A DNA stretch of 64,000 nt from Todiramphus chloris collaris (Eukaryota; Chordata; Aves; Coraciiformes; Alcedinidae), in the NCBI GenBank assembly GCA_025345505.1, contig JANVCC010000049.1, forward strand, positions 8,384,335 through 8,448,334, written 5' to 3'. Below are positions 4,614 through 51,535 of the stretch, piece by piece. Position 1 is the stretch's first letter. Every line of letters starts with the position of its first letter. The position numbers and the translations under genes are program-made. Under the pieces are notes generated by a model. That model was given only the letters and a program-made list of their open reading frames with translations. It searched no databases and was not told the origin of the DNA.

Positions 4614-4666
4614 ATCTCGATGATCTTTAAGGTCCCTTCCAACCCTGACAATTCTATGATTCTATG
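4614..4666 (+). mobile_element. CR1 LINE 3' tail fragment
   Basis: About 50 bases match the extreme 3' end of avian CR1: a GATGATCTTTAAGGTCCC segment, then CTTCCAACCCTGACA, then two ATTCTATG-type octamers. The 5' part is missing, as expected from the strong 5' truncation of CR1 insertions. It lies in + orientation in AT-rich DNA with no gene nearby. Confidence 0.9.
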
Positions 4667-7377
4667 AAACAGTTTTAGAAATAAAGTAAATAGAAATGAA
4701 AAGGTGAATGACAGTTTTGAATCTGTTTTACTAACATAATGATGTAAGTGTGAAATCTTTTGTAATAAAACATCTACTATCAGTGATTTTTCACAGAGAA
4801 GTGCAAATATGTAGAGATTATCCAGAAAACTAACTTTTTTCAGTGACATTGAGGAAAAATTTGAATGGTAATCTCAAAAAAAAAATCTCTCTTTTTGTTC
4901 TATCCTCACGAGAGGAAAGTCATTTCCACTCTACATGTTTTTCAGATGATTGGTTTAAAAGAAAGAGTTTAGCAGCAAATGGCAAGTAATCCACAGGTAT
5001 ATGAAAAATCCAAAGTGTGCAGAAGAGACATAAATACAGATCTTTAAGGAACTCTGTTCCTGCACAGATTTAGCAAAGTTGTGACTGTGTGAGCATTCAC
5101 AGAAGAAGTTAGCAGCCTCTGCAGGATCAGAATAATTCTGTAGCTAACGATTAAAGTATTTTCTCTTAAATATGCCTTTGCAGTTTTTGTTTCTTTTTAA
5201 GAAGACCTCATCTCTCTGAACATTTTCTTCCCAAAATATAAAATATGATGTCTGAAAGACTCCAAACCTGGCTATAAAACATGCTTTTGGACACTGATTT
5301 CATGCTGCTGTTCTGCAAGCTTAGTAGAATACCTTCATAAGACTTTCAACTATTCCCAGAGTTTTTAGAAAGTTAGATTTTATTAATCTGACAGAAATCT
5401 CTCCATACAGCAACCGATAAGCATCTTGGGATAGTTTGTTTTGAAAAAAATAATGTTCTGTTTCACAAAGATACATTCCTCTCACATGTTTCTGATTTTC
5501 GTTTCTTTTCTTTTATGCATCCAGATAGTTCAGCACAATTCCCTGCACTTCCTTCAGCATGAAATAGGTCAGACAATAGTTCCATTCCTTGAAGGAAACA
5601 GAAGTGGAGGAGACAGTCCAAGGCAAACCTTGAACATAGTTGTTCAAGTATGAATGAATCAGTAACCAAGAAGAGATAGAACAGAATTATCTGCAGCACT
5701 GAGAAGAAAAGTACAATGAAGGAAACAAGTATCTTCTCAGCGTGTACGTGTGCACGTGATTCCGTTACAGAAAAAAAAAATCTGGTATAAGAAAAGAACA
5801 AGCTATATAATTTCACAATAAATTCTGAAAGAGATTTTCAGGAAATTATCTTTTTTTTTTTTTTTTCTGTGTGTCTCTGTATTGGGACTGCACCTCACTT
5901 ACTCTTCACAATGGTCCTCCTAACCTGGAACAAAACCTTACCACAGCAAGCAATGTGTTTTACAAGCATCACCTTACAATCTATAAATCACGTGTGTTTG
6001 AAAAGGCCATCAGTGCAGTGCAAAACTCTCTGCCCAGCTAACGGGGCAGATGAATGCTTTAGCTACACAATATTCTTTCAAATATTAAGAAATGTTCCGG
6101 CGCTTTTTTCTCTGACCATTCCTTTTTTTTTAGCAACTGATATATCTGCAGATCCCAAGACTCCCAAGATACACAAAAATACAAGTCAAAGGTCAGCAGG
6201 AGGATGTAAAAATACCATTTAATCTTATCTGTGCAACACTTCTTGTAGACTTATTTCACCATCTTCAGGCTCCCTTTGTTGAAAGACTGATTTATTTCTG
6301 AACAGGCAGAAAAGAGATCATCAATTTGCAGCATGCAGTGAGTAAAAGCTGCTACACTTACATAAAATTTATTCATGTAGAAGATTTGGATAACACTTAT
6401 GATCCAACTTTTCATATTAAATAATAATAAAAAATCAATGCAAAACGTATGATTTTTATCTCAAGAAAGTTCTCTAATAATGTGGCACATTTAGCACTTA
6501 TTTGCTAAGTTTTAGAAAGTTTTGGTTTAGAGTTAGACATTAAGTACCTTTTATTTAGGAATGTTTTCTACCCTGTTGTGCGTACATGAGTTGCTGGGAC
6601 ACTGCTGTGTTATTTTTCATTACTCTGTCAATTCAGTATTCCGTTTCTGCAGGGGCATTGATAACAAATTTACATGCCCATGCTAAATTATTGATTTAAA
6701 CGTTGAGCATTTTGCTCTCTTTCAGCATTCGCGGCTCAGGACCTCAGAAAGGTATTTTGCCGAGTCAGGAGCAAATTTAAATTTCGAATTTTGCACGGCC
6801 CTCCATTACACAAAATCTCCCTGCGGCTCCAAATCAGGAGTCGGTAATTTCGGTACCTACCCCAGACACTATGACATAAAAGTTTGCAAAGAACAACCTG
6901 GCCGAGCATTTCCACTGATAATGAAGAAACAAATTGCAGTTTCTGGAACAAATAATAAAACAGCCTCCGAAGCAGGTCTGCCTGGGGAGAGCCCTCCGGT
7001 CCTGCTCCAGGAGGCTTTGATATGGTGGTGGCTTTGTTTTAGGCCTCACACGCACATGGACGCGCGCGGGGAGGAAAGTAGGGGAGCTCGGCAAAACTCG
7101 CCCTTCAAACCTGAAAGAACTTGGCTCCAGAATTTAAAAAAAGAAATTAAACAGTAGTAAATACAGGCGGGACAAAAGCCCTTTTCTCGTTGTGTAACGA
7201 ACGTAATACTGATAGATTACTCCCCGGTTTCCATGGGGACCTTTTTGTTCAAACTTCAGATACCGATGATTAGGGTTAAATGAGGCACCTCGTATTTTTT
7301 CGCCGAACGGAATGGAGTGGCCAGGGGGAAAGCGGGGCAAAACTGTTCGCTATTGATCGATTTTATTCCCCCCCACC

Positions 7378-7402
7378 TTTTTTTTTTTTTTTTTTTTTTT
7401 TT
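7378..7402. repeat. 25-base T homopolymer
   Basis: An uninterrupted T run sits exactly where AT-rich flanking DNA gives way to the GC-rich island. Long dA:dT runs next to CpG promoters disfavour nucleosomes. Whether it acts that way here is inference. Its length will be unreliable in sequencing. Confidence 0.9.
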
Positions 7403-7560
7403 AAAGAAAGATGATTACTTCTAATCCTTGAGGAACTGCGGCTGCTGGCAGGGCACAATTAGCACATTTTTAGCATTCCTGCAAGGGCCGCCCGCCAAGG
7501 CAGGCTGACCGTGCTCCCCCAGCCCGGGCCGGGGGTCCCCAGCACCCCCTGGTCTCCAGA

Positions 7561-7650
7561 GAGACCCCTCGGGGTGCACCGCTCGGGGCTTCAGCTGTAG
7601 CGAGACCCCTCGGCGGGATTCGGTGGTAGCGAGACCCCTCGGGGGGTTCA
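7561..7650. repeat. Short imperfect GC-rich tandem repeat
   Basis: The 12-mer GAGACCCCTCGG recurs at 7561, 7602 and 7631, each copy followed by related G-rich sequence (for example TTCAGCTGTAG and TTCAGGTGTAG). Spacings of about 41 and 29 bases show an irregular tandem array. It lies at the left shoulder of the CpG island. No function is visible. Confidence 0.7.
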
Positions 7651-8249
7651 GGTGTAGAAAGAACTTGGAGGGTGGAAAGGGGGAAGCCACCAGCGGCGGG
7701 GTGGCACCGCGGGCCGGGCCCGCTGCCGTGTAGGCCAGGCCAGGCCGGGCCGGGCTCACGGCCACATTATTTCGGGGCTTTTCGCCCCGAAACGGCCACA
7801 AGCTCCCACCCGATGCGGCACTGGGCGTCCCGAGTGGCTGTGGCCACGCGTGGCCGTGGGGGGCTGGTGGCTGCGGCCGTGGTTCGCTTCCCGTAGGGGA
7901 AGGGCGCGGAGTGGCGGCGCGGCCCCCCGCCGTGCCAGGGCCCCCTCAGGGTGCGCGGCGGGCCGCCCCCGGCCGGCGGCACCCACGCTCCCCGCGCCGC
8001 TCTCCCAGCGGCGGCACCAGGCGCGGGGTGGCCGACGACTCCCCCCGAAAGTCGCCGCTCTTTTCCCTACGAGCCGGCCGGGCGGGCAGCCCGCTCCCCG
8101 CGGTCCCCCGGCCGTGCCGCGGGGCGCTGCCCGCCCCAGCCTTTCCCCGAGGTCTCTGGCCATCACCATCCTCCCCGGGTGGGAGGAAGAGGAGGCCGGG
8201 GCGTCGGTGGCTGCCATTGGCCGGGGAGCCACGGCTGCAGCTGCAGGAC

Positions 8250-8267
8250 ACAATTAATTATGCTAAT
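8250..8267 (+). promoter_or_regulatory. SOX/POU-like composite motif (tentative)
   Basis: An AT-rich pocket inside the GC-rich island contains ACAAT (8250-8254, reverse complement of the SOX core ATTGT) followed by ATGCTAAT (8260-8267), one base off the octamer ATGCAAAT. The inverted SOX half and the 5-base gap differ from the classical SOX2-OCT4 element, so binding is uncertain. An inverted CCAAT (ATTGG, 8216-8220) lies just upstream. Confidence 0.3.
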
Positions 8268-9169
8268 GGCGTGGGGAGCGGATGTACTTTTTTCCCCCCT
8301 TTATTCCTCTCTCTTTTTTTGGCTGGTCGGTGCGGGAAGGAGACGCCCTGGGCTGGGATCACATGATATTGTCTTCGCGCCACTTTCGTAAAACCCTTTT
8401 TATTCCAGGGCTTTGCTCGGGCTCAAAGGTAACGTTGTTTATCTTTCCATTTTCTTCCCCTTTCCTTCGCGCTTCTTTTTCGTTTCCCTCCCCGTAAGCC
8501 GGTGCGAGCCCGAGGGTGCTCCCCGCGTTTGTATGCTTTTTATTATTTTATTTTAGAAATTTATTTCCTTGGTTTTTTTTTTTTAATTTTTTTTTCCACT
8601 CCTTTCTTGCGCGACTCGCCGAGCTGCGCCGCAATCTCTGCCGGGCGGCACGGATTGCCCGCAGCGGGGGGACGCGCAGCCGGGCGGGCAGTCCCGAGCC
8701 GCGACCCCCGTCCCTGGGGGGGCGGCAGCGCCTTGCTGGGGCGAGGGCGGCGGCCGCCCACCTGTAGGAGTGCGCGGGTCTCGCCCTGCCTCCCGCGTGG
8801 GCCCGCGGCTCCTACGCTACGCCCGGCCCCCCGCACCCTGGAACAGCTCGCAGCGGCTGGTGTCCCCCTCCCACCCACCCCCGCGCCCGTGGCCGGCGGC
8901 TCCCGCGGCACCAACAATGGACGGGGCCGCGGAGGGAGGCCGAAACTTGGGGCTTGCCGGCCGGCCGCTGGGGTGCGGGGCGTCGGAAGAGGAAGGGGGG
9001 GGGGAACGGACGGAACGCAACCCCGCGCGCCGCGTCCCCCTCCCCGCCGCCCCTCTCCCGCGTGCGTGTGGGGGGCAGAGTAGCGAGGGGCCGCGCGCCG
9101 CCCCCGCGTGGCCGGTGCGTGGGGGGAGGGGGCGCGCGCAGCGAGCACATGGCGGCGGGAGGCGGCGGG

Positions 9170-9179
9170 GCGCATGCGC
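9170..9179. promoter_or_regulatory. NRF1 site
   Basis: GCGCATGCGC is a perfect palindromic core of the NRF1 consensus, a common activator of CpG-island promoters. It lies 100 bases left of the assembly gap. A YY1-like ATGGCGGC is found at 9149-9156, 14 bases further left. Confidence 0.6.
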
Positions 9180-9279
9180 GGCGCGCGGAGCGCGCTGGGG
9201 CATGTAGTGCGAGGCCGCTCCGGAGGCGGCGCGCGGCGGGTGCGCGCGCGCTCGGTCGCTGGCTGGCGCGCGGAGGGGG

Positions 9280-9679
9280 NNNNNNNNNNNNNNNNNNNNN
9301 NNNNNNNNNNNNNNNNNNNNNNNNNNNNNNNNNNNNNNNNNNNNNNNNNNNNNNNNNNNNNNNNNNNNNNNNNNNNNNNNNNNNNNNNNNNNNNNNNNNN
9401 NNNNNNNNNNNNNNNNNNNNNNNNNNNNNNNNNNNNNNNNNNNNNNNNNNNNNNNNNNNNNNNNNNNNNNNNNNNNNNNNNNNNNNNNNNNNNNNNNNNN
9501 NNNNNNNNNNNNNNNNNNNNNNNNNNNNNNNNNNNNNNNNNNNNNNNNNNNNNNNNNNNNNNNNNNNNNNNNNNNNNNNNNNNNNNNNNNNNNNNNNNNN
9601 NNNNNNNNNNNNNNNNNNNNNNNNNNNNNNNNNNNNNNNNNNNNNNNNNNNNNNNNNNNNNNNNNNNNNNNNNNNNNNN
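9280..9679. other. Assembly gap (400 N) in the CpG island
   Basis: Exactly 400 undetermined bases sit in the most GC-rich part of the island, between G-rich edges. The round number suggests either an estimated or a placeholder size. The missing bases probably include core promoter or the first transcribed bases of the host gene. Open frames drawn through the N run are artefacts. Confidence 0.98.
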
Positions 9680-9698
9680 GGGGGGGCGGGCGGGCGGC

Positions 9699-9748
9699 TT
9701 GGCGCGTTTTTGGGGCTTTGAATGGAGGACTGCATTTCCCACCGTGCT
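9699..9748 (+). promoter_or_regulatory. E2F-like and ZNF143/Staf-like sites
   Basis: TTGGCGCGTTTT (9699-9710) resembles an E2F site. ACTGCATTTCCCACCGTGCT (9729-9748) closely follows the ZNF143/THAP11 type ACTACATTTCCCAGAATGC, keeping the ACT-CA, TTCCCA and TGC blocks. ZNF143 sites usually lie within about 100 bases of a start site, so transcription may begin close to here, just right of the gap. Regulation of miR-17-family clusters by E2F is established; use of this particular site is inference. Confidence 0.5.
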
Positions 9749-9810
9749 TTGTTCCTGCGCTTTAATCGCCGCCGCGGCGGCAGCGCGCGCCCCTCGGACG
9801 GGGCGGGCGG

Positions 9811-9977
9811 CACGTGGTGGGCCCCCACACCCCCTCCCGGGGCGGGGGCCGGCGTGCCCGGCCGGAGCGAGTCCGCGCTGGAAGCGCCGGTGCTCCGCGC
9901 CGCCCGAATCCCCCGGGGATGCTCCGGTTGCGGTCCCCGGGGCGGGGGGGAGGGGAGGGGGGCGCGCCGTGCACGTG
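9811..9977. promoter_or_regulatory. Pair of CACGTG E-boxes
   Basis: Two canonical MYC/MAX/USF palindromes, CACGTG, occur at 9811-9816 and 9972-9977, 161 bases apart, right of the gap in the island. MYC activates miR-17~92-type clusters in vertebrates, so these are sensible candidates for the same control here. The sequence cannot separate MYC from USF binding. Confidence 0.5.
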
Positions 9978-10285
9978 GCGAGCGCGGCCGAGTAATCCCC
10001 CTGCCCGGCCGCTCCCCCCCGAGCAGATGGTCAGTGCGGGGGAGATAACGGCGGCCGCGCCGCCCTGAGGGGAGATAATGCCCCGCCGGGGGTGGCGGCC
10101 CTCCCCCAGCAGACCCACCCCCGCCATAAGCACCCAGAGCGGCTCGCTTTCTGTGGGGGGCGGTCGGCCCTGATGCCCGCGGGCATCCCCAGCAAAAGCT
10201 TTCCCACCTCCGCAGGTTTGTAAGCCAGGTCTTGACAGCGTGGCGCCGGAGGGAAATTTAAATTTGTTAATAGATTTTTTTTAAT

Positions 10286-10300
10286 CCCCCCCCCCCCCCC
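10286..10300. repeat. 15-base C homopolymer
   Basis: An uninterrupted C run at the right edge of the island, just after an AT-rich patch (ATTTAAATTTG). Its length is prone to sequencing error. Confidence 0.85.
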
Positions 10301-10764
10301 AATCTCTTCCTCCGAGGGTCTGTCGCTTTTGTGCTGCGCTGCAGTTAACGGCATCATCTGGAGTACAGATACTCCATTATCTGGTGTGGAGGGTGCGGGA
10401 TCATGTGTCAGAACTTTTCTTAGGCTACTGGGGGGAAAATGTTTGGTTGGGTGATGCAAGATACTCGGTAAAGCTCCGGGAGAAAGGTCAAGTGGAACAT
10501 CTCGCGTGCCGTAGTACTGCACTAAAGCGAAACTGGGATGTTTTGATACCTAGTATGGTGCTTTTTAGCTGCCATTAAAAACTGGGGGAAGCCACATTTA
10601 CTTTAAGTGAAAATCAGCTGCAAATTCTTCCTTCCTTGGTGTGCTCTCAGTTGCCTTCTTAAAACTCTGAACCCTTTTCTGCCGCTGTACTTTAATAAGA
10701 AAAATTTCTGCTAGATAGAGTAGCAAATCCATATCTGTGTTATGCAACATTAATATTGGTTTTC

Positions 10765-10775
10765 TCTTTTGGCAG
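10765..10775 (+). other. Candidate splice acceptor upstream of miR-106a
   Basis: A pyrimidine-rich tract ends in TTTTGGCAG followed by GTACTG. It lies 104 bases before the first hairpin and would make the whole cluster one 3' exon. Possible donors in the island include AAAGGTAACG at about 8436-8445. No donor can be assigned from sequence alone. Confidence 0.4.
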
Positions 10776-10878
10776 GTACTGCTGGCTCCCGTGCTTCAGT
10801 CAAGATGCTTCTGTGATGCTTTTGCTGCACTGAAACAAGAAGACCTTTTAAGTAGAAGAGTTTCTATCTGGTGATGGG

Positions 10879-10960
10879 CCTTGAGTTGTGCAAAAGTGCT
10901 TACAGTGCAGGTAGAGTTTAGGATCTACTGCAGTATAAGCACTTCTGGCATTACTGTGGC
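10879..10960 (+). ncRNA. MIR106A: mir-106a precursor hairpin
   Basis: The 5' arm at 10892-10914 is identical over 23 bases to the known vertebrate miR-106a-5p, with seed AAAGTGC. The 3' arm at 10928-10949 (starts CTGCAGTATAAGC) pairs with it across a short loop. It is the first member of the cluster and shares its seed with miR-20b, so the two should repress overlapping targets, such as the CDKN1A, E2F1 and PTEN types known for this family. Confidence 0.96.
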
Positions 10961-11023
10961 GATTCAGTGCTGGTAGCAGGGCATGGACTTAACCAGGATT
11001 GTTGTTTTGCTACGTTACGAATG

Positions 11024-11106
11024 GTTCTTGTGTTAAGGTGCATCTAGTGCAGTTAGTGAAGTAGCGTAGAATCTACTGCCCTAAATGCTCCTTCTGGCAC
11101 AAGCTG
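11024..11106 (+). ncRNA. MIR18B: mir-18b precursor hairpin
   Basis: The 5' arm at 11034-11056 matches miR-18b-5p, with seed AAGGTGC. The base that separates 18b from 18a is visible: the arm ends GCAGTTAG rather than GCAGATAG. The 3' arm at about 11075-11098 starts ACTGCCCTAAATGC. The stem base is closed by CTTGTG (11027-11032) with CACAAG (11098-11103). Confidence 0.96.
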
Positions 11107-11219
11107 CTGCCTGCACGTCCAAAAAAACCGCATCCATCTGGCTTTAGCTCAGCGATTGCAATTCTAGTTAAAGTGGTTTTTTTTTCACTGAAGGCAATTG
11201 CCCAGGAAGTAGTTTTGTC

Positions 11220-11298
11220 CTAGCAGTATCAAAGTGCTCATAGTGCAGGTAGCTTTGAATTGGACCTACTGTAATGTGGGCACTTACAGTACTGCTAG
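11220..11298 (+). ncRNA. MIR20B: mir-20b precursor hairpin
   Basis: The 5' arm at 11230-11252 matches miR-20b-5p, with seed AAAGTGC and the CTCATAG core that sets 20b apart from 20a. The 3' arm at 11268-11289 starts ACTGTAATGTGGGC. CTAGCAGTA (11220-11228) pairs perfectly with TACTGCTAG (11290-11298) to close the stem. Confidence 0.96.
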
Positions 11299-11347
11299 AT
11301 AAAGTGCATCCTAGCTAGTGGCAGTTTCTGGTGAAGATGGTGCTGAT

Positions 11348-11419
11348 CACAGTCAGTTTTGCAGGTTTGCATCCCAGCTTACTAAAATTGCTGTGCAAAT
11401 CCATGCAAAACTGACTGTG
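11348..11419 (+). ncRNA. MIR19B2: mir-19b-2 precursor hairpin
   Basis: The mature strand is on the 3' arm at 11392-11414 and matches miR-19b, with seed GTGCAAA. The 5' arm at 11355-11378 begins AGTTTTGCAGGTTTGC. CACAGTCAGTTTTGCA and TGCAAAACTGACTGTG form an almost perfect outer stem. miR-19 is the main oncogenic component of the paralogous miR-17~92 cluster through PTEN repression. No miR-19a is present here. Confidence 0.96.
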
Positions 11420-11507
11420 GTGGTGGAGAATCTGTGGTGAGTGATGGGGTTTGAAGCTTTTTCTCCCTCTTTTTCCATGGAAGATCTGAAGATGCCTTGC
11501 GCTGGTT

Positions 11508-11584
11508 TCTCCATGGGTGGGGATTTGTTGCATTACTTGTAGCTATATGTAGAGTATTGCACTTGTCCCGGCCTGTGGAGGAAA
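11508..11584 (+). ncRNA. MIR92A2: mir-92a-2 precursor hairpin
   Basis: The 3' arm at 11555-11577 matches miR-92a, with seed ATTGCAC, and ends CCCGGCCTGTG. The 5' arm at 11515-11536 begins GGGTGGGGATTTG, which is diagnostic of the 92a-2 locus rather than 92a-1. It shares its seed with miR-363, about 140 bases further on. Confidence 0.96.
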
Positions 11585-11646
11585 GGAGGACTTGTCTTCA
11601 GGCTGAGCTGCCCTGAATTTGCCAGTATGGTAAGCTTTGTTTTGCT

Positions 11647-11724
11647 GTTGTCGGGTGGATCACGATGCAATTTTGATTAGTTTAGTAGGAGAAAAATTGC
11701 ACGGTATCCATCTGTAAACCGCAA
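11647..11724 (+). ncRNA. MIR363: mir-363 precursor hairpin
   Basis: The 3' arm at 11695-11717 matches miR-363-3p, with seed ATTGCAC followed by GGTATCC. The 5' arm at 11652-11673 begins CGGGTGGATCACG. It is the last member of the cluster. Its presence identifies the locus as miR-106a~363, since miR-363 has no counterpart in miR-17~92. Confidence 0.96.
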
Positions 11725-11986
11725 GACCTTCATCGCTGACAGCACGGCCTTTGTCACTAATCAGTTCTCTCAGCAGTCTGTGGTAATGTGTACAGTGCCT
11801 TGCTGGTGACTCCACAGCTTGAAGTGATGGGAAGAAAGAAAACTCGGGATGCTAAGGTTTGTCTACCATTTAAAAAGACAAAACAAAAGAAAAACCAAAC
11901 CCCTGGAACAGTTGCAGTGGTCCAGGAAAGGACGTTTGGGGAGTTTGTTTCTGTAATTGCATGTGAATGACTCTGGTGGACTTGCC

Positions 11987-11992
11987 AATAAA
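11987..11992 (+). terminator. Candidate poly(A) signal of the primary microRNA
   Basis: A canonical AATAAA lies 270 bases after the miR-363 mature strand and is followed within about 20 bases by a GU-rich stretch (CTTGTGTTT, 12010-12018). That is the normal arrangement for cleavage and polyadenylation. Isolated AATAAA hexamers are common by chance, so the evidence is positional only. Confidence 0.4.
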
Positions 11993-14900
11993 AAGATTTA
12001 AAAATGAAACTTGTGTTTAATACCGTATCTCACTAAGACGTGGTTGCAGTTAGACAAGGAATAAAAATATGGGAGTCCCCTTTTTTATTGGCCTATGGGA
12101 TAATACAGCCTTGTCCTGTCTGCTCCAGCAATCTCCTCAATTTTGAAGAAGGTGGATCAGCTACAAACCTTCTCTTGCTGCTGCTGCTTCAGAGAGGCTC
12201 TTTGCTGGGAAGGGGGATGTTTCTCCCCAGGGCAGGAGAAGGGTGTCTTCAAGTGATAGTGCTCAAACTTGCCCTTAAGTGATAGTCCACTCATTTTTAA
12301 ATTTTTTTTAATTTTATTTTATTCCACCCCTCCCCCCACCTTGACTCGTTGAACCTAGAGCTGCAGCTTGTCTTGAACTGCAGCCCTGGGAGTGAGGAGA
12401 CCTTGGTTTGTCCCAGCTTCAGAGGCTGGCAAAATGCTGCAGCCTGCTCTGCTGTGGGAGCAGAGACTGGGAACAGGTTCTGCTGCACAAGCTGAATGTG
12501 GCAGCCTGAAATTTAGTGCTCTGCTGTTGGGTGTCGGTGCTGGGAGAGTCTCTGCTGACTGAGCGAGCAAGGGGGTCTGGATGCCGTTGGGCAAAGGAGG
12601 GAGCTGAACGTGAGCCGCGTGTGGTGGGTGTGCAAGTGATGATGTGCTGGGGGAGAGCTGTGTTGCTGAGACTGCTGCTACAGTGCGGTACTCTAAAATG
12701 GTTTGAGGTTTGGGTGGCCTGCCTGCAAAGGGGAGCTTCTGCGTGTCTTGGGGAGAGGATTGCTTGGGTGCTGAGGCTTCAGCTGGGGTTTTTCTCTAGC
12801 CTGCCCTCTTGAAACTGTATGGTTACATGCCCTGTAACCATAGCCATGGTTATGTGGCAGAGCTGTTTGAGACTTGCTCCAGCACTTCTGCTTGTGGTCA
12901 CTGCAGTTGCCCCTGTACAAATAGATGTCCAGTTAAGGAGGCAGCACCAGGGAGTTTACAACACCATCCTTCCACAAAGCTAAAGTATTTTGAGATCTAA
13001 AAGGAACACTTTTGCTGGTCTGGCTTACGGTGGCCAGTGCAGCTGGGCTGATAACCATGGTCGCTCTGTGATGCGATCCTGTCCCTAGAGTCCTGTGCCC
13101 AGACCTGGTGCAAGGGGTGGTTGTTCACAGCAGGGAAGAAAATACCCCAAGCAGAGCAGTCCTTGCTGTTAGTGCAAGCACAACTACACAGCTCCTGTGA
13201 GGGCTTTCCTGCAGCCAGTGGCTCCAGATGATTTTCTACCTCAGAATCTAATCAGAGTTGTAATCTTCCCCGTGCTTTGGACAGCTGTAAACTGGACTTC
13301 AAATGCCTGTGCAAACAAAAGGCAAAGATGTTCCTTAAGTGTAGAGCCCTTCTTGGCTGCACCACTTGTTGACAGTGAGGGAAAATGGGTTGGAGTATGT
13401 GCTAATTGTGATTTACTGTAGTACATCGTACGCCAACCGAGTGGAAGGCATCAGGCTGTGTTCACACCGGGAACGAAGCCCAAATTTGCTACCGTGTTAA
13501 TGTCCTCTTGGGAGACGCTTCAAGCCTGGCTTTGTATTGCTAATACTGGAGCTGTACCCAGCTCTTGTGTGGGGTCTTACTGCTGCTTTTTGGGTGAACT
13601 GGGCTTGTGTTGATGGGGTGGGTTCTGGAGGGGATTTGGTGCTACTGGCGGGCATGCTCAGCACAGACAGTGTTTGGTACAAGGTGCTGGTGTGGTCAGC
13701 CCAGGATCTTGCCAGCAAGGGCTTTGAACACTGTGGTAGAGCCAGAGCTTGAGACAGGCCCCCCAAAACTGTCCCCCCCAGTCTGAGCTGTTAGCAGGTG
13801 ACCGATAGCTTCGGCAGTAAGCGGGGTGTATGTTTGAGTTATCTGGCTGAGCAGGATTGTTGTTGTCTGATCCTGCAAGTGAAAGCTATCTATTAACAGC
13901 GTAGGTGTTTGCTGTTCTGGTGAGTATCTACACAATCTGTTCCAAGTGACAAGCCTGTGGTTTGCAGTTTGGGTGGTTTGCAGGGAATTTACTGACTTTG
14001 AGCAAAGTGTTGGAATTTGGAAGCAAGCTGAATGTCCCTGCCATTGTAAACTAGCTCAGGCATCAGGAGGAAGCAGGATCCTCTGCTCTTTTGGGAGCGG
14101 TTTCTGCAAACCCTGCCCTGTGTGTGCTTGGTACATATAGAGTAAGTTGGTTTTATTGTCAGGCTCCGGTATTCAAGCACAGTGGGGTGGATGGTGCATC
14201 TATAGGACCTGCACACACACTGTGTTTTCTCCAGGGTACTGGTGAAATGGTGAGGAGGGGCTAACTCAAAGGGCGTTGGCATTGCAGGATTTGGAAGTCA
14301 AGCGTGCTTCTGTTACCACCTTAGTGCACCTCTAAGGCTGATGAGGAGTGTGGTGTGATTAGAGGCTGCAGGGGCTTTGTGTGATGAACTCTCATTCACT
14401 GTACATCTTCCACTGAGTCATTTCTCATGTATGAACTCTACTGTCCCTTCCTCTCTTGCACCTGAGGATAAACTGGCTCGAGCAGATTGCAGAAACTCCT
14501 CTCTGAGCCTGTCACCCCTGGCCTACCCATCCTGGCAGCTGTGTCAAACCTGCAGCCTGTTTTACACCGCCCTGATCCCCGTGTCATGACTTATGTTTTC
14601 AAAGGCTTAAAAATCCTGATCTTGACTTCTGAAGTAACAAAAGACTCGTCTTTACGCTGGTAGCACTGTGCAGAATTGCCTTGTCCAGAACATTGCTTTG
14701 GGAGATTTTTCAGGAGATGCCCTTGCTTTCCAAGGGGTTGGATGCCCCATAGAATCAGGAGGAGTTCCAGGAGGACAAAAAAGCTCCAAAAACCCCCACA
14801 GACAAACCCAACCCCAAAGCAAATGAGTCCAAGTGGTGATTTTTGGGTAGTTTGCATATCTGAACTCTGTGAAGGTGGATGCAGAGATGGGGTGCGCAGA

Positions 14901-35108: not shown

Positions 35109-35268
35109 ATGTCGGGGAGCGGCGGAGCGCTGCTGCTGCTGCTGGCCGCGCTGCTCGGTGTGCCCGGGGGCGCGCAGCCGGCGGGAGAAGCCGCCTGCCT
35201 CCCGGTCCGCGCCGCCTTCCAGGTGCTGCAGCCCGGAGCCAAGTGGGTCCCCGAGAGCCCTGTGCCAG
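35109..35268 (+). CDS. GPC3: Glypican-3, exon 1 coding part
   Basis: GPC3 is a GPI-anchored heparan sulfate proteoglycan at the cell surface that tunes Hedgehog, Wnt, BMP and FGF signalling and restrains growth. Its loss causes Simpson-Golabi-Behmel overgrowth in humans. This exon encodes 53 codons plus one base. Residues 5-20 form a leucine-rich signal-peptide core (GGALLLLLAALLGVPG), with likely cleavage near residue 22. The mature N-terminus has one cysteine (residue 30) and the block LQPGAKWVPESPVPG, which closely matches GPC3 in mammals (LQPGLKWVPETPVPG). The exon ends CCAG|GTGAGA, phase 1, and joins exon 2 in frame. The start at 35109 (GGAGGATGT) is the only ATG placed ahead of the signal peptide. 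The N-terminus lacks the proline run I recall in human GPC3. Confidence 0.95.
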
Positions 35269-38200
35269 GTGAGACCACCCGGCCCCGCGGACTGTCGCCG
35301 CTCGCTGCCGGTGCTCGGCCGTGCCCGTGCTCGGCGGTCGCTCGGGCGCTAGAGGTACCGGCTGCAGCGCCCCGAGATAGGGGCGCGGGGCAGGGCAGCT
35401 GTGCGGCTGCGGGACGCTGCGGAGCCTCGTGCGGGCTCTTGCTGGGGCTGCTCATCCTGGGCAGCTCGGTGGCGGTGGCTGCCAAGCTCCGCGCTTCGGG
35501 TGCGGGAGGCGCGTCCCATTGCATTTGTCTGGGTTAAAGGGGAGCCCGCGGTTACGTCCCTGGACTGGAAATCTCCTAGCCGAGCGGGGCTTCTACCGCT
35601 CTCGTTTTGTTTAGGGGGGTCTCTTACCTAGGGGCGGCTCATGGGCACACTGGGGCTGTCGGGCAGAGCTGCTGTGCCCCCTGCAGAACCCGCCGTCCGC
35701 GGGCACCTCTGTCGCGGGCTCCGGTGCGAGGTGCCGGGGAGCGCAGGGCGGCCCTGCCCGCCAGCGGGGCCACCGCGCACCCGCCCACGTCCTGCGGCCG
35801 CCAGCGCTGCTTTCCTCGGGTCGCTCTGCGGCGGGCACGGCCGTCGCCCGAGGGAAATCCCGCTCTGTACAGTGCCTCTGAGAGCAGCCAAACCCTCACC
35901 CCCTGCCTGCTCAGGCGCTGTGACAGCCCCAGACACGGGGCTGGAAACGGGCAGCACAGCGCTCTCCGGGCTGTGTGCGCTGCGGGGCGGGCGGGAGGCT
36001 GCTGGGGTCTGGGCGAGGTGTGACTGCCCTGCAACCAGCGTTACAGGTGGCTGCCTGCGTGGTGCCTCACCACCTGCACCCTACTGCTGCTTTCACTATA
36101 TATGCCTCACTCCTATTTAAAATATAAGTGAAATATTAGAATTTCCTGCCTTTTAAAGGTCCCTTTGCAGCTTTTTGGTGAGTAGGGAGTGCCAGCTCCT
36201 CCAGGTGGGTGGCTGTGTGCCGGAGTGTGTGTGTGCGCACAGACGGATAGGTTTTGATAGCTGCCTTACAGAGCTGCCTGGAGAACTTGGGTGCTGTTGT
36301 GTCAGATTAAATACGCAGCAGCGAACGTCTGCCGTGAAAAGCTTATGATCAAAGTATAAGAAAACGAAGAGATAACAGGCGAATGTGACAGGCAGGGGAG
36401 GTGAAATGAGATCATTGCTAGTAGTAGATTTTTTTAATAATGATGTGTTATGTTTCTTGCATTCGGTGTTGCATTGACCACAAATACAAGAGTTGCTTCA
36501 GCAACGGTCTGCTGCAGTACAGGGGAGGAAGGGGAGAAGCAGGGTGCTTAGGGCTGGGACTGCAAACTGTTGTGTCTGCTGGTGTAAACACCAAGTCCTT
36601 GGTCTGTAGAACTGACTTACCAACAGCTGTGAGATCTAGAGGGAGAGTTTGGATGCAAGCCCTGGTTGAGAGATTACCTCCCCATCCCTTCCTATCCTTA
36701 CATCCCCTTCCCATTTAATTTTTGACTCTTTTCTTAATGCTCCCTTCAGAATAGCTGCAGGAGCAGCATGTCTTCTCTCTTCATCGTGCATCATCTCCTG
36801 TTTTGTACGGAGGTACTTCCAGAAACACTTTGCAATGAAATGCATGGAGAGTTGCAGGCTGGGGAAAGAGCTCCTCTCAGCACCACTAAAATGACAAATT
36901 TTGTGTTTGTCATCAAAGAAATAACTCCCATTCCTTCCCTGAAAGTCAGAGAAATGCTTGCGTTGATCCCTAGGTAACTGAATTTCTTGGAGTGTATTTT
37001 TCCAGGGAGAGGTGATGGAGAGTCAGGCAACTGGGGTCCTCCTGGTGGGTCCCTGAAGGCTGTGCTGTGAACATTGAGGGGCTGCTGAGGCCTCCATGCT
37101 GCAATGTGGTCAGTCCTTCCACAGAAACTGGTGGCATCCTCCATCCTGGCCTGGGTCGTGATGGCAGTGTATGCCTTTGCCCTGGCATCTTCCTTTCCCA
37201 GCAGGGTTCAGGTTGCTGAAGTTGCTCCGTTGTGCTCTTGTTCCCCTGGGAGCCGCAGCTGCATCCCTGAATACTCAGGAGTAAGGAGTCCCTTGCCTCT
37301 CTGCACAGCCCGTGGGTAGGTGGATCAATATCTTGTAACAGGGCTGGTGTTTCAAGTGAATGCTTCCAGCTTGTTATGATGATAAAGTTCCCACATATCG
37401 AATCGAAAGTGGATTTTACATTTGCCTAAGTACATAAACTTGATCATAATTAAAGCAGTGACTGCTTCCTTATACCTTGGATCTGCCCCATCTTGCATGA
37501 CTCTGTGTAGTAATTACACTTCAGAGCACTTGCTTCTCCTAGTAGCAGCTGCATAAATCTCTGTAATAGGGGAACATCACTCAAGAACTATTTTCCAGGC
37601 TTCTGTTTATTGCTTTTCTTCCTTTCATACATCTGTCAATTAAAAAAAGTTTTGGAGTTCCCAGGCACAAATCACCACTGAATCAATGCTGAGAACCTTT
37701 GCCTATAGATCCTACCACCCAGGAGAAACTGAGGGCTTGAACAACTTAAAACGTGTGTGGGGTTTGTTTTTTTTTGACACAGGCAGAAAATAATCCCTTC
37801 TGCAAGCTGCGTTTTGCATTATGAGCAGTAGTGGCAGAATGCTTAAGCACAGGAAATGTTGCTGAGTTGCAGCGCGCAGGAAAAATGTCCCATGGCTCCG
37901 TTTTACTGGGTCAGTGCTGCGTGGGCTGGGGAGGCACTGGCACAATGCTCCCTGTAGAGGAACCCAGCCACACTGTGCTGATACTTTTAATGATGAAAAA
38001 AACCCCCCAATTCTTATAAAGGTGAGGGAAGTGTCATATGGTATCAATGTTGCAGGAGTAACTGTAGCTGAAGGGGTGCATAGGGCAGTGAGAAAAAACT
38101 TGGTGTCCTCCAGCCTGGGGACCAGGGTTTGTAGCTCTGGAGCATGCTTTGGCAGGCTCGGAGGTGGGGAGCAGCACGACCTAGCTACTGTCAGCTGCAG

Positions 38201-44481: not shown

Positions 44482-44844
<363 letters not shown>

Positions 44845-46127: not shown

Positions 46128-46360
46128 TTTTTTGGGAAGACTTTGGGAAGAATTGCTTCACTATGAGGGTAGAGAGACACTGGAAGAGGTTGCCCAGGGA
46201 GGTGGTGGAAGCCCCATCCGTGGAAGTTTTTAAGCCCAGGCTGGATGGGGCTGTGAGCAACCTGCTCTAGTGGGAGGTGTCCCTGCCTGTGGCAGGGGGG
46301 TTGGAACCAGATGATCTTTAAGGTCCTTTCCTACCCTGACGATTCTATGATTCTATGTTT
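46128..46360 (+). mobile_element. CR1 LINE 3' fragment
   Basis: Contains the CR1 blocks AGAGGTTGCCCAGGGAGGTG and TGGGAGGTGTCCCTGCCTGT, then GATGATCTTTAAGGTCC, and ends with two GATTCTATG-type octamers. It is 5'-truncated, in + orientation and little diverged, so relatively young. A T-run (about 46037-46053) precedes it. A 65-residue open frame over it is incidental. Confidence 0.95.
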
Positions 46361-50499: not shown

Positions 50500-51535
50500 A
50501 GATGGCTAACAATAGAGCTCAGAAGGTCGTGATCAGTGGCACAGAGTCCAGTTGGAGACTTGTAGCTAGCGGAGTTCCCCGGGGGTCTGGACTGAGTCCA
50601 GTCTTGTTCAACTTACTCATTAGTGATCTGGACGAAGGGACAGTGTACCCTCGGGAAGTCTGCTGATGATACTGAACTGGGAGGAGTGGCTGACACTCCA
50701 GAAGGCTGTGCTGCCATCCAGTGAGATTTGGACAGACTGGAGAGTTGGGCAAAGGCAAACCTAATGAAGTTCAACAAGGACAAGTATAGAGTTCTACACC
50801 TGGTGGAATAACCCCGCGTACCAGTACAGGTCAGAGGTTGACCTGCTGGAAAGCAGCTCCATGGAGAAGGACCTTGGATTCCTGGGGACAATAAGTTATC
50901 CATGGGACGACGATGTGCACTTTTGGCCAATAAGACCAGTGGTCTCCTGGGGTTCATTAAGAAGAGTGTGGCCAGCAGGACGAGGGATGTTCTCCTCCCT
51001 CTTTACTCTGCACTAGTGAGACCACATCTGGAGTATTGTGTCCGGTTCTGGTCTTCCCAGTTCAAGAGGGACAGGGAAGTATTAGAGAGTCTAATGGAGA
51101 CTGCAAAGATGATTAAGGGACTGGAACGTCTCTCTTACGAGGAAAGGCTGAGAGACCTGGGGCTGTTTAGCCTGGAAAAAAAGAAGACTGAGAGGGGATC
51201 TTATTAATGTTTACAAATATCTGAAGTGTGGGTGTCAAGTAGAAGGGGCCAGTGTCTTTTCAGTGGTGCCCAGTGATAGGACAGGGGCAATGGCCACAAA
51301 CTGGAACACAAGAAGTTCCACCTCAAGATGAGGAAAAACTTCTTCACTGTGAGGGTGATGGAGCCTGGAACAGGCTGCCCAGGGAGGTTGTGGAGTCTCT
51401 ATCTCTAGAGACTTTCAAAACTTGCCTGGAGATGTTCCTGTTTGGCCTGCCCTTGATGATCCTGCTTTGGCAGGGGGGATGAACTCCGTGATCTCTAGAG
51501 GTCCTTTCCAACCCCTACCATTCTGTGATTCTATG
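50500..51535 (+). mobile_element. CR1 LINE copy with remnant of the reverse transcriptase region
   Basis: The longest mobile element here, about 1.0 kb in + orientation. It begins inside the reverse transcriptase part of CR1 ORF2 (translation reads [15 protein letters not shown], then across a frame break YTELGGVADTPEGCAAIQ). It continues through the CR1 C-terminal region (SVASRTRDVLLPLYSALVRP, HLEYC, GLERLSYEERLRDLGLFS) into the 3' UTR and ends GATTCTATG at 51527-51535. Stops and frame shifts interrupt it and the 5' two-thirds is absent, so it cannot move. A 101-residue frame at 50902-51207 is a surviving piece of it and not a host gene. Confidence 0.95.

Follow-up and report, generated by a model that had tools for sequence, protein, structure and literature searches.

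The window, i.e., the whole stretch of 64,000 nucleotides of Todiramphus chloris collaris DNA that was analysed, carries six microRNA hairpins that almost certainly correspond, as an orthologous copy, to the miR-106a~363 polycistron known from vertebrates and that, as far as processing can be deduced, share its general polycistron mechanism. The assignment to miR-106a~363 rather than to miR-17~92 is made because of the arm sequences, the gene content (miR-363 is present and miR-19a is absent) and the neighbouring gene, GPC3. Comparison of the whole window with all 4227 Rfam families (cmscan), with the curators' gathering score as the cut-off, produced six matches, all on the + strand between 10882 and 11723, with bit scores of 58.9 to 109 and E-values of 8.3e-12 to 8.1e-26, which counter a chance origin of the hairpins. 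Their order on the + strand, within about 1 kb, is miR-106a, 18b, 20b, 19b, 92a and 363:

10882..10957, + strand: pre-mir-106a hairpin (mir-17 family), RF00051, 68.3 bits, 5p arm from 10892
11024..11105, + strand: pre-mir-18b hairpin (mir-17 family), RF00051, 58.9 bits, 5p arm from 11034
11220..11298, + strand: pre-mir-20b hairpin (mir-17 family), RF00051, 71.2 bits, 5p arm from 11230
11345..11422, + strand: pre-mir-19b-2 hairpin, RF00245, 83.3 bits, 3p arm from 11392
11505..11585, + strand: pre-mir-92a-2 hairpin, RF00464, 85.8 bits, 3p arm from 11555
11644..11723, + strand: pre-mir-363 hairpin, RF01898, 109 bits, 3p arm from 11695

The initial annotation had proposed just such a six-hairpin miR-106a~363 cluster on one strand, and the Rfam matches bear this out; its interval of 846 bases was right within a few bases, the hairpins covering 842. 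The lowest-scoring hairpin, 18b, has several unpaired basal positions, and its 58.9 bits compare with a cut-off of 49.5. At a permissive threshold (E <= 0.5), each of the 10 Rfam matches in the whole window coincides with one of these hairpins or with its complement. To call the cluster the main functional RNA of the window was fair as regards structured RNA, but exons 1 and 2 of GPC3 are present there too. With the human letters of miR-106a-5p, 18b-5p, 20b-5p, 19b-3p, 92a-3p and 363-3p as reference, each mature sequence was found at its expected arm with 0 mismatches, in agreement with the earlier claim that all six match known microRNAs. The presence of miR-363 and the absence of miR-19a, on which that claim also leaned, hold as well: the miR-363 match is the one of 109 bits, and the interval between 18b and 20b (11107-11219), where a miR-19a relic might lie, has no Rfam match of any kind at E <= 5.

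Folding of each interval, a check that the initial annotation had suggested, gave a hairpin in six of six cases (-27.1 to -42.2 kcal/mol), and all six are retained when the 984 bases at 10777-11760 are folded together at minimum energy, for which the fold z is -8.23 against 20 shuffles. A scan for a seventh hairpin covered 340 windows of 84 bases with starts from 10500 to 12190 on both strands, with 30 shuffles each, and the best 45 of the 340 were examined; among these, all windows below z -3.0 overlap a known hairpin or its complement, and a seventh hairpin was rejected. The next windows outside the known hairpins are both on the minus strand, at 12040-12123 (z -2.98) and 10690-10773 (z -2.91), and were judged to be probably noise. 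Several of the hairpins also fold well on the minus strand, where the mir-19, mir-363, mir-17 and mir-92 matches all fail to reach their gathering scores and are mirror images of the + strand hairpins, and antisense microRNAs were likewise set aside.

Six of six mature arms unchanged from the human letters, and six of six hairpins above the Rfam cut-offs, would be unexpected after a long decay, and we consider it very improbable that the locus is a decaying or silent copy in which the hairpins persist but transcription has been lost. Such a copy would be in keeping with what is known of mammals, in which, according to PMC4982076, expression of the cluster is not widespread and its loss leaves the development of mice apparently normal (there citing Ventura et al. 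2008). Against this, PMC6410298 reports thousands of reads of miR-363-3p in the serum exosomes of chicken.

The reading as an intact miR-106a~363 cluster can also be tested by comparison with the paralogous cluster of the same genome. A search of the 1.17 Gb assembly (889 contigs) with the 846-base cluster, in which only the two best first-look candidates were scored, gave at least five matches in total: the window itself (query positions 1-759) and, on the minus strand of another contig, C10, four pieces. At C10:19517869-19518664, minus strand, are six hairpins above the cut-off, whose families follow in the order mir-17, mir-17, mir-19, mir-17, mir-19, mir-92; mir-363 was not found in this cluster at the Rfam cut-offs. 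The C10 locus is thus 17-18a-19a-20a-19b-92a, i.e., the complete miR-17~92 cluster of this genome. In mismatches to the mature sequences, the window and C10 have, respectively, 0 and 1 for 106a, 0 and 1 for 18b, 0 and 2 for 20b, and 0 and 8 for 363, while miR-17, 18a, 19a and 20a have 1, 1, 1 and 2 at their best places in the window and 0 each at C10. For 19b and 92a the two loci have the same arm sequence (0 mismatches each at both), and these arms have no power to discriminate. The comparison of the arms with a miR-17~92 locus elsewhere in the genome, another of the checks proposed at the outset, accordingly places 106a, 18b, 20b and 363 better in the window and leaves 19b and 92a tied. Five of the six window hairpins match their best C10 partner at 59/79 to 70/82 positions, and miR-363 is without a partner there (best 51/92 positions). 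On these mismatches and identities the loci are separate clusters, of which that in the window is 106a~363. A search of the whole genome for the mir-19 family, in which 60 out of 346790 first-look candidates were scored, gave three hairpins above the cut-off; the window has one of them and C10 the other two.

The two clusters are alike in the parallel order of the same hairpin families, in a good acceptor site shortly before the first hairpin (at about 50 bases in C10 and 106 in the window) and in being followed, on their own strand, by an exon of a glypican gene; the C10 cluster differs in its miR-19a between 18a and 20a, its lack of miR-363 and its GPC5-like, rather than GPC3, neighbour. They also bear on the statement that the six hairpins stand in ancestral order. 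The order is indeed the usual one for 106a~363, but the claim of ancestry does not follow, given the extra miR-19a slot of the C10 paralogue; the ancestral arrangement is not readable from two loci, because these differ by both miR-19a and miR-363.

The glypican neighbour of the window cluster was identified from two exons:

35109..35270, + strand: coding portion of GPC3 exon 1, an open frame that runs from the ATG at 35109 to a GT donor
44512..44673, + strand: GPC3 exon 2, identified by phmmer, Pfam Glypican and residue identity to human GPC3

The translation of exon 2 matches solved Glypican-3 chains (phmmer, E 3.1e-29, against 0.027 for Glypican-1), has a Pfam Glypican match (8.3e-17), and has 50 of its 54 residues in common with human GPC3, as compared with 34 for human GPC5. 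Exon 1 by itself had no PDB match at E <= 1 (for an overlapping stretch of 59 amino acids) and no Pfam match, and we presume it to be exon 1 of GPC3 from its similarity to the human gene and its position before exon 2; a second CpG island, at about 34.3-36.3 kb, covers this ATG-bearing exon. GPC3 thus follows the cluster on its strand, with 23.4 kb between miR-363 and the start codon. A tblastn search with the two GPC3 exons of the 80 kb downstream of the C10 cluster gave one convincing match, to exon 2, at C10:19479992-19480153 on the minus strand (E 8e-19, 57 % identical to the window exon), and nothing convincing for exon 1 (best E 1.0). This C10 exon, about 37.7 kb downstream of its cluster, is GPC5-like: it shares 44 of its 54 residues with human GPC5 and 33 with GPC3. 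A glypican gene after the microRNA cluster at both loci fits the duplication of a whole segment. That the window could carry miR-17~92 or a copy recently derived from that cluster, as 106a, 18b and 20b arms just 1-2 bases from miR-17, 18a and 20a and the shared 19b and 92a arms might suggest, is refuted by the separate cluster on C10 and the differing glypican neighbours, with the presence of miR-363 in the window (8 mismatches in its best C10 match) standing against it too, and we give the idea next to no credence.

Elsewhere in the window, Pfam searches of ten chosen open frames (from 162 listed) matched Glypican alone, in one of the ten. The remains of CR1-like LINEs were noted as an open frame at 50842-51207 (+), which had no Pfam match, and as octamer pairs at 4650-4666, 46341-46357 and 51519-51535; the former resembles CR1 reverse transcriptase and the latter may be CR1-like 3' ends, as would suit a bird or other sauropsid. 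There is a minisatellite at 926-1033 (22-base units, 4.9 copies), and a search with 14-base seeds found no repeats of 60 bases or more.

Around the miR-106a~363 cluster, the window has several candidate signals for a host transcript:

7251..10500, strand not assigned: CpG island (GC > 0.55, CpG o/e > 0.6), in which the promoter of a host transcript may lie
10756..10775, + strand: putative acceptor with a pyrimidine tract and CAG; the exon would begin at 10776
11434-11442 (between 19b and 92a) and 11627-11635 (between 92a and 363), + strand: strongest donor-like sites, both between hairpins
11987..11992, + strand: candidate poly(A) signal AATAAA (pattern match), with a second at 12060

The CpG island was called in 500-base windows, with the o/e inflated in those that overlap a 400-base N gap at 9280-9679 inside the island, and this gap may hide the promoter or the donor of a first exon. 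The candidate acceptor, 106 bases upstream of the first hairpin, ranks fifth of the 4472 AG dinucleotides on the + strand of the window in a simple weighting scheme; the corresponding acceptor at C10, about 50 bases before miR-17, is the best within 1000 bases upstream. The AATAAA signals are 264 and 337 bases downstream of the cluster. What speaks against a simple host transcript is that the best donor-like site between 7001 and the exon has a moderate score (7.2, at 8428) and that the two strongest of the whole 7001-12300 region, with scores of 9.4 (11436) and 9.2 (11629), are inside the cluster, such that alternative splicing at 11434-11442 or 11627-11635 could cut the cluster exon. In mouse, the Kis2 RNAs are, according to PMC1794537, differentially spliced, directly upstream of mir-106a, and overlap it by four bases. 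On the pattern of these signals we lean, with moderate confidence, towards a host RNA that would be driven from the CpG island, spliced, polyadenylated and non-coding, with all six hairpins in one exon, and that would be comparable to mouse Kis2. A more speculative and rather doubtful suggestion, raised because both clusters have a good 3' splice site near the first hairpin and a glypican gene downstream on their strand, is that the clusters may be controlled through splicing into the cluster exon and through the contest of this splicing with Drosha over the first hairpin, and that such control may be older than their split.

Under the polycistron mechanism proposed here, a single primary transcript would probably start within the CpG island (7.3-10.5 kb), be spliced into the exon beginning at 10776 and be polyadenylated after 11987 or 12060, carrying all six hairpins. 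Cleavage by Drosha, followed by Dicer, would yield miR-106a, 18b, 20b, 19b, 92a and 363, and the mature microRNAs would repress mRNAs via four seed groups, i.e., 17/20/106, 18, 19 and 92/363. CNNC motifs usually have a distance of 16-18 bases; with the 3p ends of 106a, 18b and 20b being approximate, a CNNC is present 14-24 bases past the 3p end in four of the six hairpins (not 106a or 19b), and at 16-18 bases in 18b alone. These positions count against the proposed mechanism, as does the good folding of several minus strands. The terminal loop region of pre-mir-363 has a GGAG at 11688, which LIN28 may bind, and binding of lin28a to a GGAG motif in the loop of Xenopus pre-mir-363 is described in PMC4982076.

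A single assembly here offers a clean orthologue together with the paralogous cluster and the glypican neighbour of each. It is useful for annotating microRNAs that protein-only pipelines omit, a purpose that the published chicken and Xenopus clusters already serve. In human, GPC3 is downstream of miR-106a~363, on the same strand and side, and in mouse we take the insertions in XqA5, by their map position, to mark the site of the 106a~363 cluster. The window copy itself is intact and ordinary, and the cluster is already known: PMC4834410, PMC6410298 and PMC4982076 describe miR-106a~363 clusters with the same six names as in the window from the X chromosome of human and mouse, chicken chromosome 4 and Xenopus, with all six microRNAs reported to be expressed in Xenopus embryos (PMC4982076). 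No difference of substance was found between these known clusters and that of the window, which shares the GGAG of the miR-363 loop with Xenopus (PMC4982076) and a GPC3 neighbour with mouse. In PMC2065841, on mouse, the table names Gpc5 for the mir-17 row and, as a point against the assignment by neighbour, Phf6 as the gene for the mir-363/106a cluster, Gpc3 being named in the discussion only, at more than 120 kb from the XqA5 insertions as against the 23.4 kb between miR-363 and the GPC3 start codon here. The miR-106b~25 cluster is like that of the window in having the mir-17 and mir-92/25 families, and unlike it in consisting of three microRNAs inside a protein gene, in mammals an intron of MCM7 (PMC4834410).
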